A DNA stretch of 64,000 nucleotides from Salvelinus alpinus (taxonomy: Eukaryota > Chordata > Actinopteri > Salmoniformes > Salmonidae). The DNA lies in the NCBI RefSeq assembly GCF_045679555.1, contig NC_092122.1, forward strand, positions 8,117,003 through 8,181,002, in the 5' to 3' direction. Under the pieces are notes generated by a model, which worked only from the letters and a program-made list of their open reading frames with translations, had not been told where the DNA came from and did no database searches. Made by a program: the position numbers and the translations under genes. Shown piece after piece: positions 6,288 to 64,000 of this stretch (position 1 is the stretch's first letter; the number at the start of each line of letters is the position of its first letter).

Positions 6288-7905
6288 CAGTCGAAGTCGA
6301 AAGTTTACATACACCTTAGCCAAATGCATTTAAACTCAGTTTTTCACAATTCCTGACATTGAATACAAGTAAAAATTCCCTGTCTTAGGTCAGTTAGGAT
6401 CACCACTTTATTTTAAGAATGTGAAATGTCAGAATAATAGTAGAGAGAATGAATTATTTCAGCTTTTATTTCTTTCATCACATTCCCAGTGGGTCAGAAG
6501 TTTACATACACTCAATTAGTATTTGGTAGCATTGCCTTTAAATTGATCAACTTGGGTCAAACGTTTCGGGTAGCCTTCCACAAGCTTCCCACAATAAGTT
6601 GGGTGAATTGTGGCCCATTCCTCCTGACAGAGCTGGTGTAACTGAGTCAGGTTTGTAGGCCTCCTTGCTCGCACACGCTTTTTCAGTTCTGCCCACAAAT
6701 TTTCTATAGGACTGAGGTCGGGGCTTTGGGATGGTCACTCCAATACCTTGACTTTGTTGTCCTTGAGCCATTTTGCCCCAACTTTGGAAGTATGCTTGGG
6801 GTCATTGTCCATTTGGAAGACCCATTTGCAACCAAGCATTACTTCCTGACTGATGCCTTGAGATGTTGCTTCAATATATCAACATAATTTTCCTACCTTA
6901 TGATGCCATCTATTTTGTGAAGTGCACCAGTCCCTCCTGCAACAAAGCACCCCCACAACATGATGTTGCCACCCCCGTGCTTCACGGTTGGGATGGTGTT
7001 CTTCGGCTTGCAAGCCTCCCCCTTTTTCCTCCAAACATAACGATGGTCATTATGGCCAAACAGTTCTATTTGTCTTTCATCAGACCAGAGGACATTTCTC
7101 CAAAAAGTACGATCTTTGTCCCCATGTGCAGTTGCAAAACGTAGTCTGGCTTTTATATGGCGGTTTTGGAGCAGCGGCTTCTTCCTTGCTGCCCAGCCTT
7201 TCAGGTTATGTCGATATAGGACTTGTTTTATTGTGGATATAGATACTTTTGTACCTGTTTCCTCCAGCACATTCACAAGGTTATTTGCTGCTGTTCTGGT
7301 ATTGATTTGCACTTTTCGCACCAAAGTACGTTCATCTCTAGAAGACAGAACGCATCTCCTTCCTGAACGGTATGACGGCTGCGTGGTCCCATGGTGTTTA
7401 TACTTGCGTACTATTGTTTGTACAGATGAACGTGGTACCTTCAGGCGTTTGGAAATTTCTCCCAAGGATGAACCAGACTTGTGGAGGTCTACAATTTTTT
7501 TTCTGAGGTCATGGCTGATTTCTTTTGATTTTCCCATGATGTCAAGCAAAGAGGTATTGAGTTTGAAGGTAGGCCTTGAAATACATCCACAGGTACACCC
7601 CCAATTGACTCAAATGATGTCAATTAGCCTATCAGAAGCTTCTAAAGCCATGACATTATTTTTTGGAATTTCCAAGCTGTTTAAAGGCACAGTCAACTTA
7701 GTGTATGTAAACTTCTGACCCACTGGAATTGTCATACAGTGAATTATAAGTGAAATAATCTGTCAACGATTGTTGGGAAAATTACTTGTGTCATGCACAA
7801 AGTAGATGTCCTAACCGACTTGGCAAAACATTAGTTTGTTATCAAGAAATTTGTGGAGTTGTTGAAAAACGAGTTTTAATGACTCCAACCTAAACTTCCG
7901 ACTTT
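6288..7905 (-). mobile_element. Tc1-like transposon, Sleeping Beauty-related, copy 1
   Basis: The left inverted repeat begins CAGTCGAAGTCGAAAGTTTA after a TA at 6286-6287. The right end is TTTTAATGACTCCAACC followed by ACTTCCGACTT, and it is cut short by the neighbouring element at 7906. The interior encodes a decayed transposase on the minus strand. Terminal sequences and protein match the salmonid Tc1-like family from which the synthetic Sleeping Beauty element was derived (established knowledge). The copy is inactive because of its broken transposase and truncated right end. Confidence 0.93.
6516..7549 (-). pseudogene. decayed Tc1-like transposase (copy 1)
   Basis: Reading from about 7537 on the minus strand, the protein starts [20 protein letters not shown] and continues with the paired DNA-binding region ([20 protein letters not shown]) and the first catalytic block around WSDE. 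An in-frame stop at 6893-6895 falls just after the KIDGI block, where related elements encode lysine. The C-terminal part, with [13 protein letters not shown] and ending GNATKY, survives only in pieces in two frames down to 6516. The family length is about 340 aa, and no full-length product can be made. Confidence 0.9.
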
Positions 7906-10950: not shown

Positions 10951-11612
10951 CTGTCCTTGGTGGTGATGTACAGGGCTAAGGTTGGGGTTGACTCTGTCCT
11001 TGGTGGGTGATGTACAGGGCTAAGGTTGGGGTTGACTCTGTCCTTGGTGGTGATGTACAGGGCTAAGGTTGGGGTTGACTCTGTCCTTGGTGGTGATGTA
11101 CAGGGCTAAGGTTGGGGTTGACTCTGTCCTTGGTGGGTGATGTACAGGGCTACGGTTGGGGTTGACTCTGTCCTTGGTGGGTGATGTACAGGGCTACGGT
11201 TGGGGTTGACTCTGTCCTTGGTGGTGATGTACAGGGCTAAGGTTGGGGTTGACTCTGTCCTTGGTGGGTGATGTACAGGGCTAAGGTTGGGGTTGACTCT
11301 GTCCTTGGTGGGTGATGTACAGGGCTAAGGTTGGGGTTGACTCTGTCCCTGGTGGGTGATGTACAGGGCTAAGGTTGGGGTTGACTCTGGACCTGGTGGG
11401 TGATGTACAGGGCTAAGGTTGGGGTTGACTCTGTCCTTGGTGGGTGATGTACAGGGCTAAGGTTGGGGTTGACTCTGTCCTTGGTGGGTGATGTACAGGG
11501 CTAAGGTTGGGGTTGACTCTGTCCTTGGTGGGTGATGTACAGGGCTAAGGTTGGGGTTGACTCTGTCCTTGGTGGGTGATGTACAGGGCTACGGTTGGGG
11601 TTGACTCTGGAC
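10951..11612. repeat. minisatellite, ~44-bp unit, ~15 copies
   Basis: The unit is CTGTCCTTGGTGGGTGATGT followed by ACAGGGCTAAGGTTGGGGTT and GACT. Copies vary between GGTGGTGATG and GGTGGGTGATG, between GGCTAAGG and GGCTACGG, and between GTCCTTGG and GGACCTGG. The array starts after a G-rich stretch (G runs at about 10886-10914). It does not preserve a reading frame. Confidence 0.96.
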
Positions 11613-12853: not shown

Positions 12854-13941
12854 AGAGCCCTAAACCCCCCATGTGCTCTTAATACCTCTCTAGACTAGAG
12901 CCCTAAACCCCCCATGTGCTCTTAATACCTCTCTAGACTAGAGCCCTAAACCCCCCATGTGCTCTTAATACCTCTCTAGACTACAGCCCTAAACCCTCCC
13001 ATGTGCTCTTAATACCTCTCTAGACTACAGCCCTAAACCCTCCATGTGCTCTTAATACCTCTCTAGACTACAGCCCTAAACCCTCCCATGTGCTCTTAAT
13101 ACATCTCTAGACTACAGCCCTAAACCCTCCCATGTGCTCTTAATACCTCTCTAGACTACAGCCCTAAACCCTCCATGTGCTCTTAATACCTCTCTAGACT
13201 ACAGCCCTAAACCCTCCCATGTGCTCTTAATACCTCTCTAGACTACAGCCCTAAACCCTCCATGTGCTCTTAATACCTCTCTAGACTACAGCCCTAAACC
13301 CTCCCATGTGCTCTTAATACCTCTCTAGACTACAGCCCTAAACCCTCCATGTGCTCTTAATACCTCTCTAGACTAGAGCCCTAAACCCCCCATGTGCTCT
13401 TAATACCTCTCTAGACTAGAGCCCTAAACCCCCCATGTGCTCTTAATACCTCTCTAGACTAAAGCCCTAAACCCCCATGTGCTCTTAATACCTCTCTAGA
13501 CTACAGCCCTAAACCCTCCATGTGCTCTTAATACCTCTCTAGACTAGAGCCCTAAACCCCCCATGTGCTCTTAATACCTCTCTAGACTAGAGCCCTAAAC
13601 CCCCATGTGCTCTTAATACCTCTCTAGACTAGAGCCCTAAACCCCCCATGTTCTCTTAATACCGCTCTAGACTAGAGCCCTAAACCCCCCACGTGCTCTT
13701 AATAACACTCTAGCCTAGAGCCCTAAACCCTCCATGTGCTCTTAATACCTCTCTAGACTAGAGCCCTAAACCCTCCATGTGCTCGTAATACCTCGCTAAA
13801 CTAGAGCCCTAAACCCTCCATGTTCTCTTAATACCTCTCTAGACTAAAGCCCTAAACCCTCCATGTGTTCTTAATAACACTCTAGACTAAAGCCCTAAAC
13901 CCTCCATGTGATCTTAATACCTCTCTAGACTAAAGCCCTAA
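12854..13941. repeat. minisatellite, ~43-bp unit, ~25 copies
   Basis: The unit is AGAGCCCTAAACCCCCCATG followed by TGCTCTTAATACCTCTCTAG and ACT. Variants fall into an ACTACAGCCC/CCCTCC group in the middle and an ACTAGAGCCC/CCCCCC group at both flanks, suggesting internal expansion of one subtype. Copies become more divergent towards 13700-13941. Each unit holds CCCTAAACC, a telomere-like heptamer, but the arrangement is a normal minisatellite. Confidence 0.96.
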
Positions 13942-14406
13942 AGCTTCTCTGTGCTTCTCCCTCACTAGAGCATCCTAGCAGTATGTCTGCTGACTCAGCC
14001 TCTTCCTGTAAATGATGTCATTTATTTATCTTTAGAAGTAGCAGAGACAGTGTCCTCTCCTCTGGGGGATAATATAATGAGACACTTCCTCTCATCTCAT
14101 CTCCTCTCCTCTCACCACTTCCTGATATCAAAAATCAGGAATTGCTGTCAATGACTCAGTGTATAGCAAACTGAAACATGCAAACCAGGTGACCAGTTTG
14201 TAAGCGTTGGTACCGTTAGTGTCACTGTCCTTGGTGCTGAAATATTAAGTCATACTGAAGCGTTAGCCCACGGATGCAGTTCAACATGATCTCTATCCCA
14301 TGGAATGTCTGTTCGAAACACTGCTCATACAGGCTACCACACAACTGAGTCAATGTTTCATGTTGGTTAGAAGTGCACTACACAGGGAATACATAGGGTC
14401 TCATTT

Positions 14407-15098: not shown

Positions 15099-16722
<1,624 letters not shown>

Positions 16723-28275: not shown

Positions 28276-28456
28276 CAGGCTAAAACTAGCCTGAATCCCA
28301 GTCTGTTTGTGCTATCATGCCAACTCCTCACTCATTATTTTGTAAGTCGCTCTGGATAAGAGCGTCTGCTAAATGACTTAAATGTAAATGTAATTATCAT
28401 GCCACAAAGAAACAATGAGTTGGCAAGAGCACAAACAGATCTGGGACCAGGCTAAA
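28276..28456. mobile_element. foldback repeat plus SINE/LINE-tail fragment
   Basis: GGCTAAAACTAGCCTGAATC ... CAGTCTGTTTGTGCTATCATG at the left is inverted against GCAAGAGCACAAACAGATCT ... GGGACCAGGCTAAAAC at the right. Between them lies GTCGCTCTGGATAAGAGCGT, a common fish retroposon tail, with ATGTAAATG after it. The outer repeat also appears in pieces at about 34160, 34485 and 61750. Confidence 0.6.
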
Positions 28457-52765: not shown

Positions 52766-58341
<5,576 letters not shown>

Positions 58342-59380: not shown

Positions 59381-62300
59381 TCATTTCACCATAGCCAAGT
59401 CCTTGAGTGAGTTCCTCTGTCTCTTGGCTTTGTAGTCAGGCCTCAGGAACTCAATCTTCCTCTTCTTGGCCTCGATCTTGTTTTTGTGCTTCTTCCTGGC
59501 TGCGATGTCAGGGTTAGCCACCGCCTGAGAGAAGAGTAAAAGGTTTGTGTGAGATGTATCCAACATTACCCTGTCATTATGATAGAAACATTTGCTCAAG
59601 AGCCAAAACAGTGTGTGCTGTTCATCACTAACTCAAAGATTTACCAGTTTGGCCATCATGAGTTCAGATTTTTGTTGTGGCCCCCACCCCATAAAAGTTG
59701 CCCATCCTTGTTTAAATATATAACATTGGTGGATACTAATATCCCTGTTAGCCTCCCAGGCCCCTGAACACAAATATTACATTGTATTACACCCCCAAAT
59801 TATTCCACAGATTCCTTGGCATATTATTTTTAAATATATTTTGAGATCTGGTGTCTGAGAACCCTGCTCTATGCCCTCCTCTGTGAGGCATCCTTCTGAA
59901 CGACTGAGAAGGCCAGGGAGAAGGTCTGCAGCCCCACCTGCTTCTTCAACAGCTCTATCAGTTCCTGGGACAGGTTTTTCAGGGTGGGGTCTGGGGAGTA
60001 CAACGCAGAGATGCATTCAATTAGTGCTCTATTTCATTCGGAGACAAACGCCTACAGAGGGATCAGTCTGAAGAGAACTACAGAGTTGAGTTGTGTTGAC
60101 ACAGAATAACACGAGAGAGCAGTCAGACAACACGACAGCCAGAAAATAAACACACAAAACTGAAAGGTTTTGATTAGGATGATGAATCTGAGTAGTGGTG
60201 AAAGGGGGAGGACGATGACAGACAGTGTTGTGTTACCTTGATCCTCGTAGCTGTTATTAAATGACGAGGACAGTATTGCAGTATGTTACCTTGGTCTGCA
60301 TAGGTGCTGCCAAGTTCTCTGTAGAGAGGGCCGATGATGGTGGTGAGGTAAGCCTTTCTTTACCCAGGTCCACAGCTATGGCACCCAGGAACTTAAACAC
60401 ACATGTTCTCTATGGGGGGAGAGAAAGGACAAATAACAATACAACCATTTATTGCTGATATTCATTAACTCACCATCAGTAAATAAGCAGTGGTGTTGGG
60501 AAAATATATAAAAGGACCATGTATTGGGGTGTTTGTGTGTACCTTGAGGGGTATCTTGGGCGTGTCTGCAGCTTCCCTCTTAGCCATTAGAGACAGCTTC
60601 TTCATCATCCACAGTAAGGATGGAGGACGATCATCCTTCTCGTCCTCCTCTTCTTGCTTCTCTTTCTCTTCTTCTTCATCCTCTTTCTCTCCATCTTTCT
60701 CCCCCTCTCCTCCATCTCTTTTTCCTCCTCTACCTCCTGGGCAGGTGTGATTTCAGACTCAGGTGAGATCAGCTAGATCACCTTGGCGACGGACAGCAGG
60801 TTCTTGATCACCTGGGGAACGAGACGATCAAACCTGTCAATCGAACTACTGCCTGACGCGTGACACCTCAGACTTGAATAGTCAGTTTGCAACATCATCA
60901 GTGTAATATCTTCGTCCTTACCTGTTCTCCCGTTGACGTGTCCAGGTACTTCGACTGCAGCTGGTGACAGAAAGACAGGATCAACTCTCTCATCTGGTGG
61001 AGGGAAGGAGAGGTAACGCCAGGTAAAAAGACACATAAATCAGTATCGCTAAACATCACTTGAGTCAAACCCTTGTTTACAATACAACGCCTTCAATTAT
61101 CTCATTGTTATTCTAACCAATAAAAGCTGTTCTCCCTGTTCCGCCTCATTCACTGAGTAGCCAATCTTGGTGACATGTTTCACCTTGGTCACTCTCAGCA
61201 GGACAAGTCATCGGTCTGCATCTTTGGTTAAGTGATGTTCAGACCCGTCTCACCTTCTTGTCTAGGTTGGTGGTAAGAAATGTGGTCGCCACAGGTTCTG
61301 GTGTGGTGGCGTTGTTGGCACAGCCCTTCTCTGTGGTCTCCTCTCTTCAGCGGGCAACCAGCTGGTCTGGCCGGTGGGCAGCAAACAGCTGACCAAACAG
61401 TTGAGAGGCGGTCAGCCACACCCAACAGTGAGGGTAGCACAGGTGGGTCTCAACATGACCTGGTGGGGGGGGGACGCATTGCTCCGTTACACCAAGAGGA
61501 AGCCAGCCGTTTAGAGGGTAAAATATTACATTCAATGATGTAGATCTGTAGTTCTAGACTGTATCATCAAGACATTTCAGGTGGAAACGTGTAGGCACAT
61601 GGGTTTAATCACACTGCTATACAGAGCAGGCAATAAGCTTAACATACCACAGTACTGTAGGCCTATTTATCTCACCCCAGACAACGGAGATGCCTGAGGT
61701 GATTTTCAGACCGTGACGGTTGATCTACAACCAGCGCTCCGACCATAGGAAATGGCAAGACAGCACAAACAGATGTGGGGCCAGGCTAGAGGTAGTAGTG
61801 TCTTACCCAGGATGTTAGTGAGTGTGTCTTGAGGCTTGCTGAGCTCCAGTAGGCTACAGTCCTTGGTGAGTTTGGTGACCAGCGTCAGGTAGCTGAACAG
61901 CAGTCTGTCTGCTGCCTTCTCATCCTGCTCCTCCTCAATCTGACAGACACACAGATATAGAGCAGCTGTTAGCACAGGTGATATAATATAGTAATTAAAA
62001 GACGAATACCTACATCCCGCTGAGATAATGCTTTTCAAAGTATAACTTTCCACGTAGTTTATATCTTAAAAGTTTGATTTGTAAAATAGTTCATGTTCGA
62101 CTCACGTCTTCAAAGTTGTCGGGTGGATCTCTTTCTCGATGAGGGGCAGCACGGCATCTAAACGGAGGCCAAACCGAACCCCCTCTACCTCCACAAACAG
62201 CCCACACACCTGGGCCCCCCAGACGACGCAGACACACCTGGGGGTAGGGGTCAGGGGCTACAGCAGGAGGACACGGGTTGCATCTCAATTGTCTAAAGTG

Positions 62301-64000
62301 GATTTCTCTCCTTTATTTGCACTTCATCAGATATTTACATTGCTTTATTAGATGCATAGAGAAAGACAATTAAGACGAGTGTGTGTGTGTGTGTCTGCAT
62401 GTGTGTGTGTGTGCGTCCATACCTTGTCTCCAGACAGCCAAGTGTTGACCAGGGTGTTCTGGTGTTCCTGGTCCAGTTGACTCAGCAGTGATTTGATAGC
62501 CACGGCGGCCATTTTCTTACAGCGAGCCGAGTCATCGTTAACCATGGCCAGAGCCAGAGGGACGAAGAACAACCCACTGTGCTGCAGCAGCAGGTTCTAG
62601 GACAGAGACGAATCAGTTACACACAGGAGTAGAATTAGGTTGTCCCCAAAAAACTGATCTAAGGTCAGTTTTGAGTTTATTCCCTCTAATGGTTAGGGTT
62701 AGTATGTGGGATCTATTTCTATAGCCAACTTCAACCAGGAGCAGTGGGTTTAGAAAGCGACCAGAGTTACTGCGAGTCGAACTCAAGTAATTATGGGATG
62801 TGTGTGTCAGGTGGATTGTTGTGGATACCTGAGAGAAGGTCTGAAAGATATAGCCCATCAGCTCCAGAGAAGCCTCTCTTCCTGTGTCAAACTCATAACT
62901 AACACAGAGAGAGATTGTAGTATCAAAAGTCACAAACAATCGACTTACATCTAAAATAACGAATCCCTTTAAACACAAATGTATCCTACCTGAGCTGTGC
63001 CACGATGAAGTCTAGATGTGATCTCAGTTTCTTCCCCAGAGGATAATCCAGGATATACTTCTGGTAAATCTACAGGTGAAAATAACAGAAACACTAAAAT
63101 ACCTTTTTACAAGACACCTTCAAAAATAAAATACAAAACGCTAAAATACAGGTTTAAAAATGTATATAAAAAGAAACAAAACTGTACATGGACCCTGATC
63201 ATGCCGTTCTGCCCGGTAACAGACAGCTTGGCCACTTTCTTCATCAGCTCCTCCATCTCTGGTACTACCAGCTTCCTGGACAGGATGGCCTGTAGCTGGA
63301 GATAGAGAGGATATAGTACAGAGGATATAGTACAGAGGAGGACAGATGAAGAATTTCATTATACACTTTGAAAGCAAATACATCTATATGTCTGGTTAAA
63401 TAAAAGTATAAAATGCTGGGGTCTGATGCATTAGCTGTAGCAATAAAATACGGTCTCAGGTGAAGAGGGAGGGCGTCAGCTACCTTTAGCAGGCCGAAGG
63501 CTGTCGCCTGACGTGATTGGTCACAAATGTCCTCCTCAGCGTATCCCAGCAGCACTTGCAGCTGCGTCTCAGTTATCTTGTGTGTCTTCATGTTCTTTAC
63601 TAGGGTGGTGATGGACTGACAGCAAAAAGAAGGGTCATTCAATTCATTTGATACAGACAAATTTCTGTCATATCAAATCATTGAAACACACAATATGGCC
63701 TATAAACTGGTTACCAACGTAATTAGAACGGTAAACAAGTCGTCATGTGGTATATTTAAGCAATAAAGGCACGAGGGGGTGTGGTATATGGCCAATATAC
63801 CACGGCTATGGGATGTTCTTAGTAACGACGCAGCGCAAAATACCTGGATACAGGAATCCAGGGCTCGAACGACCCGGTTTATAATTGATACTATATTAAT
63901 ATGTATTAATTCAACCATTTCCAGAACAGAAACAATCACTTGTGCTACCTTGAAGCAGTTCTGGACGAGTTGGAAGTTCTCTCCGCGGGCAGCACCAGCC
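59381..64000 (-). pseudogene. utp20: utp20 C-terminal region, decayed copy (5' part outside window)
   Basis: UTP20 is a large HEAT-repeat protein of the small-subunit processome needed for 18S rRNA maturation in the nucleolus. Exons on the minus strand: 64000-63949 (partial), 63615-63484, 63289-63188, 63069-62990, 62898-62829, 62596-62423, 62237-62106, 61939-61807, 61459-61254, 60993-60922, 60811-60543, 60409-60290, 59990-about 59872, and 59524-59381. Conserved blocks include ETQLQVLLGYAEEDICDQSR, EEQDEKAADRLLFSYLTLVT, TLKNLSQELIELLKK, and the basic end KIEFLRPDYKAKRQ...SLKDLAMVK. Exons from 64000 to 62423 are clean. After that: shifts of +1 and -1 within 62237-62106; TGA at 61347-61349 where Trp is expected; TAG at 60773-60775 where Tyr is expected; one base lost in the acidic tract of 60811-60543; a shift in 60409-60290; and TAG at 59869-59871 with the exon end missing. 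It most likely makes no full UTP20. Confidence 0.85.
59525..59868. other. utp20 intron with probable repeat insertion
   Basis: The minus strand here contains TTTATGGGGTGGGGGCCACA followed by ACAAAAATCTGAACTCATGA, which I take to be a dispersed salmonid repeat. Where the penultimate utp20 exon should continue for about nine more residues (a basic stretch in the family), unrelated sequence begins instead. Insertion or deletion at this point is the likely cause of the lost exon end. Confidence 0.45.

Follow-up and report, generated by a model that had tools for sequence, protein, structure and literature searches.

The stretch analysed here (the window) comprises 64,000 nucleotides of Salvelinus alpinus (NC_092122.1 of assembly GCF_045679555.1, positions 8,117,003-8,181,002) and lies on contig C37 in the genome search (C37:8117003-8181002). 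It carries, on the minus strand from 64000 to 59381, the last 14 exons of a copy of utp20, a ribosome-building gene, the first of these exons being truncated by the window edge. An intron of this copy contains an H/ACA snoRNA, and arl1 is the convergent neighbour. These features are given below; exons are numbered as in the 59-exon model of the partner copy on contig C11, and lesions were called by direct base-level alignment of the window copy to the C11 copy.

63949-64000, minus strand: exon 46, 3′ part; touches the window edge, acceptor uncertain
63484-63615, minus strand: exon 47, without stop or indel
63188-63289, minus strand: exon 48, in-frame loss of 9 bases near 63191; donor CAT/GTACAG, partner CAT/GTACGG
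62990-63069, minus strand: exon 49, without stop or indel
62829-62898, minus strand: exon 50, without stop or indel
62423-62596, minus strand: exon 51, in-frame loss of 9 bases near 62457
62106-62237, minus strand: exon 52, G run lengthened by one G near 62220, one C missing near 62124
61807-61939, minus strand: exon 53, matches the partner at 133/133 sites
61460-61806, minus strand: snoRNA host intron, donor TGG/GTAAGA and acceptor CACCAG, both the same as in the partner
61587-61714, minus strand: H/ACA snoRNA ACA64 (Rfam RF01225), full length, 68.7 bits (gathering threshold 35)
61254-61459, minus strand: exon 54, in-frame TGA at 61349-61347 where the partner has TGG (one-base change)
60922-60993, minus strand: exon 55, without stop or indel
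60543-60811, minus strand: exon 56, TAG at 60775-60773 where the partner has TAT (one-base change); 16-base deletion near 60708
60290-60409, minus strand: exon 57, 7-base deletion near 60353
59865-59990, minus strand: exon 58, third stop, TAG at 59871-59869; exon end and donor gone
59381-59524, minus strand: exon 59 (last), in-frame loss of 9 bases near 59489; normal stop retained
56063-58341, plus strand: arl1, last four exons unbroken, 133 codons

The window also contains several repeats and mobile elements. Positions 1-2149 are occupied by a minisatellite of 46.7 copies of a 46-base unit, truncated by the window edge; C11 has a more extensive array of this unit at about 42249295-42256316. 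Two further minisatellites were found at 10951-11609 (44-base unit) and 12854-13942 (43-base unit), the latter being present also on C11. Long transposase-like ORFs, which we take to be of the Tc1 type, are located on the minus strand at 15320-16375 and 6893-7609, one of them open over 351 codons. Rfam identifies the 3′ element of an UnaL2 LINE at 28329-28382 on the plus strand, while the ORF fragments at 57381-57991 (minus strand), in the interval that separates the arl1 exons from the utp20 copy, are presumably reverse-transcriptase-like.

Splice-aware alignment of human UTP20 (PDB 7mq8, chain SP) to the window gave a best strict model scoring 1203, against 1413 when stops and frameshifts were permitted; the same 14 exons of the C11 partner scored 1673 whether lesions were permitted or not. 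The window copy is identical to the human protein at 215/328 residues in the downstream exons and at 124/200 in the upstream exons, counts that leave out gaps, split codons and part of the human residues. A Pfam scan of six window utp20 ORFs found no UTP20 domain, and a search with the utp20 protein found no relative in the viral_contigs set.

The alignment to the partner bears out the view, reached in an earlier sequence-only reading, that this utp20 copy is decaying: it is a pseudogene with stops and frameshifts. Both substitution stops reported there, TGA for Trp at 61347-61349 and TAG for Tyr at 60773-60775, are indeed one-base changes with respect to C11. The exon at 60811-60543 measures 269 bases, off a multiple of three, because 16 bases are missing; the shift reported for 60409-60290 corresponds to 7 missing bases, and the extra G and missing base reported for 62237-62106 are found as an added G near 62220 and a lost C near 62124. 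These last two changes offset each other, leaving the frame open with about 32 codons read in another frame. The description of the upstream exons as perfect does not hold, since they lack 9 bases, in frame, at 63191 and again at 62457 and have a donor, CAT/GTACAG, that differs from the CAT/GTACGG of the partner. Nor is every later exon group in trouble: 61939-61807 and 60993-60922 are intact, and the sole defect of 59524-59381 is the in-frame loss of 9 bases. The earlier reading did not mention the TAG at 59871-59869, the loss of the end and donor of exon 58, the three 9-base deletions (two of them within upstream exons, 48 and 51) or the ACA64 snoRNA. The intron after exon 58 aligns poorly to the partner intron. 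A lost donor at 63187, suspected from the human comparison alone, was discarded, as the partner likewise reads CAT/GT; the 9-base deletion and the altered donor remain. Clustering of the lesions within the window, tested before the partner was known, is marginal at most (P 0.04-0.20, depending on the count used). Exons 53 and 48 show no substitution with respect to the partner (0/133 and 0/102, the exon average being 4.4%), which may reflect chance, late gene conversion or local constraint.

The second, intact utp20 copy that the earlier reading predicted lies on C11, in a duplicated block. The partner is described by a 59-exon GT-AG model whose frame runs unbroken over about 2,790 codons to one terminal stop; the model is 8,370 bases long counted from the second codon, with an ATG directly before it. 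The exon search was guided by an approximate human sequence, and the borders of small exons are provisional where conservation is poor. Stops counted within the C11 search matches come from read-through of introns, as the exon model shows. The search of the animal's own genome (2.37 Gb, 928 contigs) with the UTP20 Pfam profile returned three matches at only two loci, C11 and C37, among six candidates scored; searching with the protein brought up two further weak matches, one on C24 (36% identity, E about 4e-4) and one on C27 (46% identity, E about 5e-4).

Blocks of the window, with gaps between them, are collinear with C11 42.186-42.251 Mb, which runs in the opposite orientation; only DNA blocks of at least 250 bases, running from window position 63699 to 1 and ordered on C11, were counted. 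Pieces of the neighbouring genes were also found beside the partner: 2 of 3 for arl1, 3 of 3 for a FYVE-domain gene, a stop lying within one of these matches, and 4 of 4 for bicd, the FYVE and BicD assignments being made by Pfam. In bicd, used as a control, four ORFs are unbroken and match the BicD profile over 632 residues in a scan that omitted profile positions 621-669. The introns of the C37 utp20 copy are kept at the partner positions, so this copy was not retroposed; together with the collinear neighbours, they indicate that C11 and C37 share a duplicated block, most simply read as an ohnolog pair. Whole-genome duplication is most likely the cause of the block.

The damage extends over the entire C37 copy, which is dead as a whole and not at its 3′ end alone. 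Compared with the 59 partner exons, 18 are unmatched, 19 clean, 6 have in-frame indels only and 16 were labelled broken, an unmatched exon being one without a blastn match at E 1e-4, in order, within C37 8197000-8176300. The unmatched exons are 6-9, 20 and 27-39, every one of them beyond the window. Four labels are doubtful, those of exons 5, 40, 22 and 46: exons 5 and 40 align at just 50% and 41% identity and are better counted as absent, and exon 22 was labelled broken solely from its donor column, where another alignment shows GT. Further frameshifts are found beyond the window; those falling within absent stretches are forced alignments and were excluded from the count. A loss confined to the 3′ end, or a very recent one, was rejected on the ground that 18/59 exons are unmatched beyond the window. 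The recent loss that the earlier reading drew from the clean upstream exons is not supported, for the same reason, and there is no clear contrast in dN/dS between upstream and downstream exons. Because the outlying part of the copy is worse, the clean run of upstream exons is an effect of where the window ends, and such a run tells little about the age of a loss.

The two copies differ at 80/1,807 sites in exons and at 203/2,029 sites in introns (last two introns left out). Over the 595 codons compared in the window exons, dS is 0.097, dN 0.028 and dN/dS 0.285 (0.245 for the six upstream exons, 0.306 for the eight downstream ones). Since 0.285 lies between constraint and neutrality, these values suggest that the duplication probably came first and the coding loss later. 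As a rough estimate, it would span about 10-40% of the elapsed time, given an assumed dN/dS of 0.25-0.1 for a working copy; dating by stop count is very imprecise, the interval reaching from 0.006 to 0.22 substitutions per site.

The window ACA64 sits on the gene's strand within the intron 61806-61460, and its partner is located at C11 42187650-42187777 (71.1 bits). The window copy has an H box ACAGTA, which fits ANANNA, an ACA three bases from the 3′ end and two hairpins, and it keeps 25 of the 28 consensus pairs. Its predicted fold has -43.6 kcal/mol (z -3.1), that of the C11 copy -35.2 kcal/mol (z -1.3). The two snoRNAs differ at 4/128 sites with no indel, compared with 39/218 in the rest of the host intron (p 3e-5); as judged from this divergence, ACA64 is shown to have been constrained since the duplication. 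Four or fewer differences would have a probability of 0.15 or 0.012, under two neutral rates, had the snoRNA been free since the duplication, and of 0.83 or 0.52 had it been free for 40% of the time; these values assume that all 4 differences arose on the C37 branch, and the 40% is a rough reading of dN/dS. Divergence therefore cannot tell whether selection on ACA64 outlasted the protein. A search with an approximate 28S rRNA stretch, as a possible target of the snoRNA, gave no match.

At the other end of the gene, about 5.3 kb just upstream of the partner start codon (C11 42161788-42167075) have no counterpart near C37 8195930. This difference may represent a deletion in the C37 copy, perhaps including the promoter, or an insertion in the partner. 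A 196-base part of the C11 stretch resembles C37 8193375-8193185 and may contain a repeat.

Taken together, the feature is almost certainly the 3′ end of a duplicated, non-processed utp20 pseudogene, one of two copies produced by block duplication. A chromosome block, most likely with the whole genome, would have been duplicated to give two utp20 copies, of which the C11 copy, with its full-length frame, presumably supplies the UTP20 protein. The C37 copy, for which we infer a loss of function, would then have been freed from selection; it has gathered stops, frameshifts, the donor loss and the loss of many exons. If spliced, its RNA would reach the TGA of exon 54 while several junctions still lie ahead, which should make it a target of NMD. 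Both copies carry the intronic ACA64, still structurally whole. What speaks against this explanation is that, by a dN/dS of 0.285 and the identity to human UTP20, the amino acids have drifted little in view of how heavy the structural damage is; the loss may be fairly young, or constraint may have lasted until late.

That the lesions are sequencing or assembly errors in an intact gene deserves hardly any credence: the added G and the missing C do fall in homopolymers, but the remaining lesions are substitutions, deletions of 7, 9 and 16 bases and missing exons, and the checked neighbours bicd and arl1 are clean. It is very improbable, too, that the C37 copy still yields a useful shortened or alternatively spliced UTP20. 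The 19/59 clean exons and a dN/dS below 1 in the window exons are consistent with such a product; however, a strict GT-AG model that dodges the window lesions scores 1203 instead of 1413 and has to resort to implausible exons, and 18/59 exons are unmatched.

A separate question is whether the decayed copy has been kept as a non-coding host of ACA64, a coding host becoming an SNHG-type gene, which we consider unlikely. The full-length snoRNA with its boxes, its 25/28 pairs and its stable fold, the deficit of differing sites relative to the rest of the intron (4/128 vs 39/218, p 3e-5), the preserved splice sites of the host intron, the presence of the C37 start codon and the clean exons 2-4 all point in this direction. 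Random change simulated at 5% per site leaves fold and boxes standing in about 15% of 1,000 runs, which adds slight support. On the other hand, the partner snoRNA scores slightly higher (71.1 bits), so the C37 copy would be redundant; the 4 differences fit freedom for 40% of the time; and the promoter may be gone with the unmatched 5.3 kb, unless the partner has an insertion. Moreover, a snoRNA copy may be conserved and yet silent: among human snoRNAs that are not expressed, almost 12% are described as highly conserved (PMC11028025). The full scenario, in which the protein is lost, the C37 copy is still transcribed and spliced and ACA64 is kept by selection while the host turns non-coding, is given a slightly lower standing and is quite unlikely.

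The pseudogene, as we read the C37 copy, has parallels in known systems. For salmonid ohnologs, which date from a duplication 80-100 million years ago, a shift of one copy to lower expression with possible pseudogenisation has been described (PMC8042706); as in that account, one of two duplicates is decaying here, although that work deals with expression genome-wide, whereas the present case concerns one gene whose lesions are read from its sequence. As for the snoRNA, Snora78 is by name ACA64 (PMC12289781), and SNHG9 is tabulated with SNORA78 among the non-coding snoRNA host genes (PMC6912041). SNHG9 thus resembles the C37 locus in being a gene without coding capacity that bears the same snoRNA family; unlike SNHG9, the C37 locus, as a putative host, is a utp20 duplicate in decay whose intact partner bears the snoRNA as well. 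Judged by the listings of our literature search, we found no report of utp20 loss in fish; likewise, the titles and abstract openings of the matches listed gave no direct precedent for snoRNA hosts without coding capacity or retained after duplication.

After genome duplication one of two gene copies is commonly lost, and the utp20 pseudogene in itself therefore changes little. The locus is an ordinary pseudogenised duplicate with a surviving snoRNA. It offers a clean example in that the partner is intact over its full length, and it allows the protein of one gene and its intronic snoRNA to be scored independently. Should the snoRNA prove to be kept without the protein, the C37 copy would show a route to non-coding snoRNA host genes.
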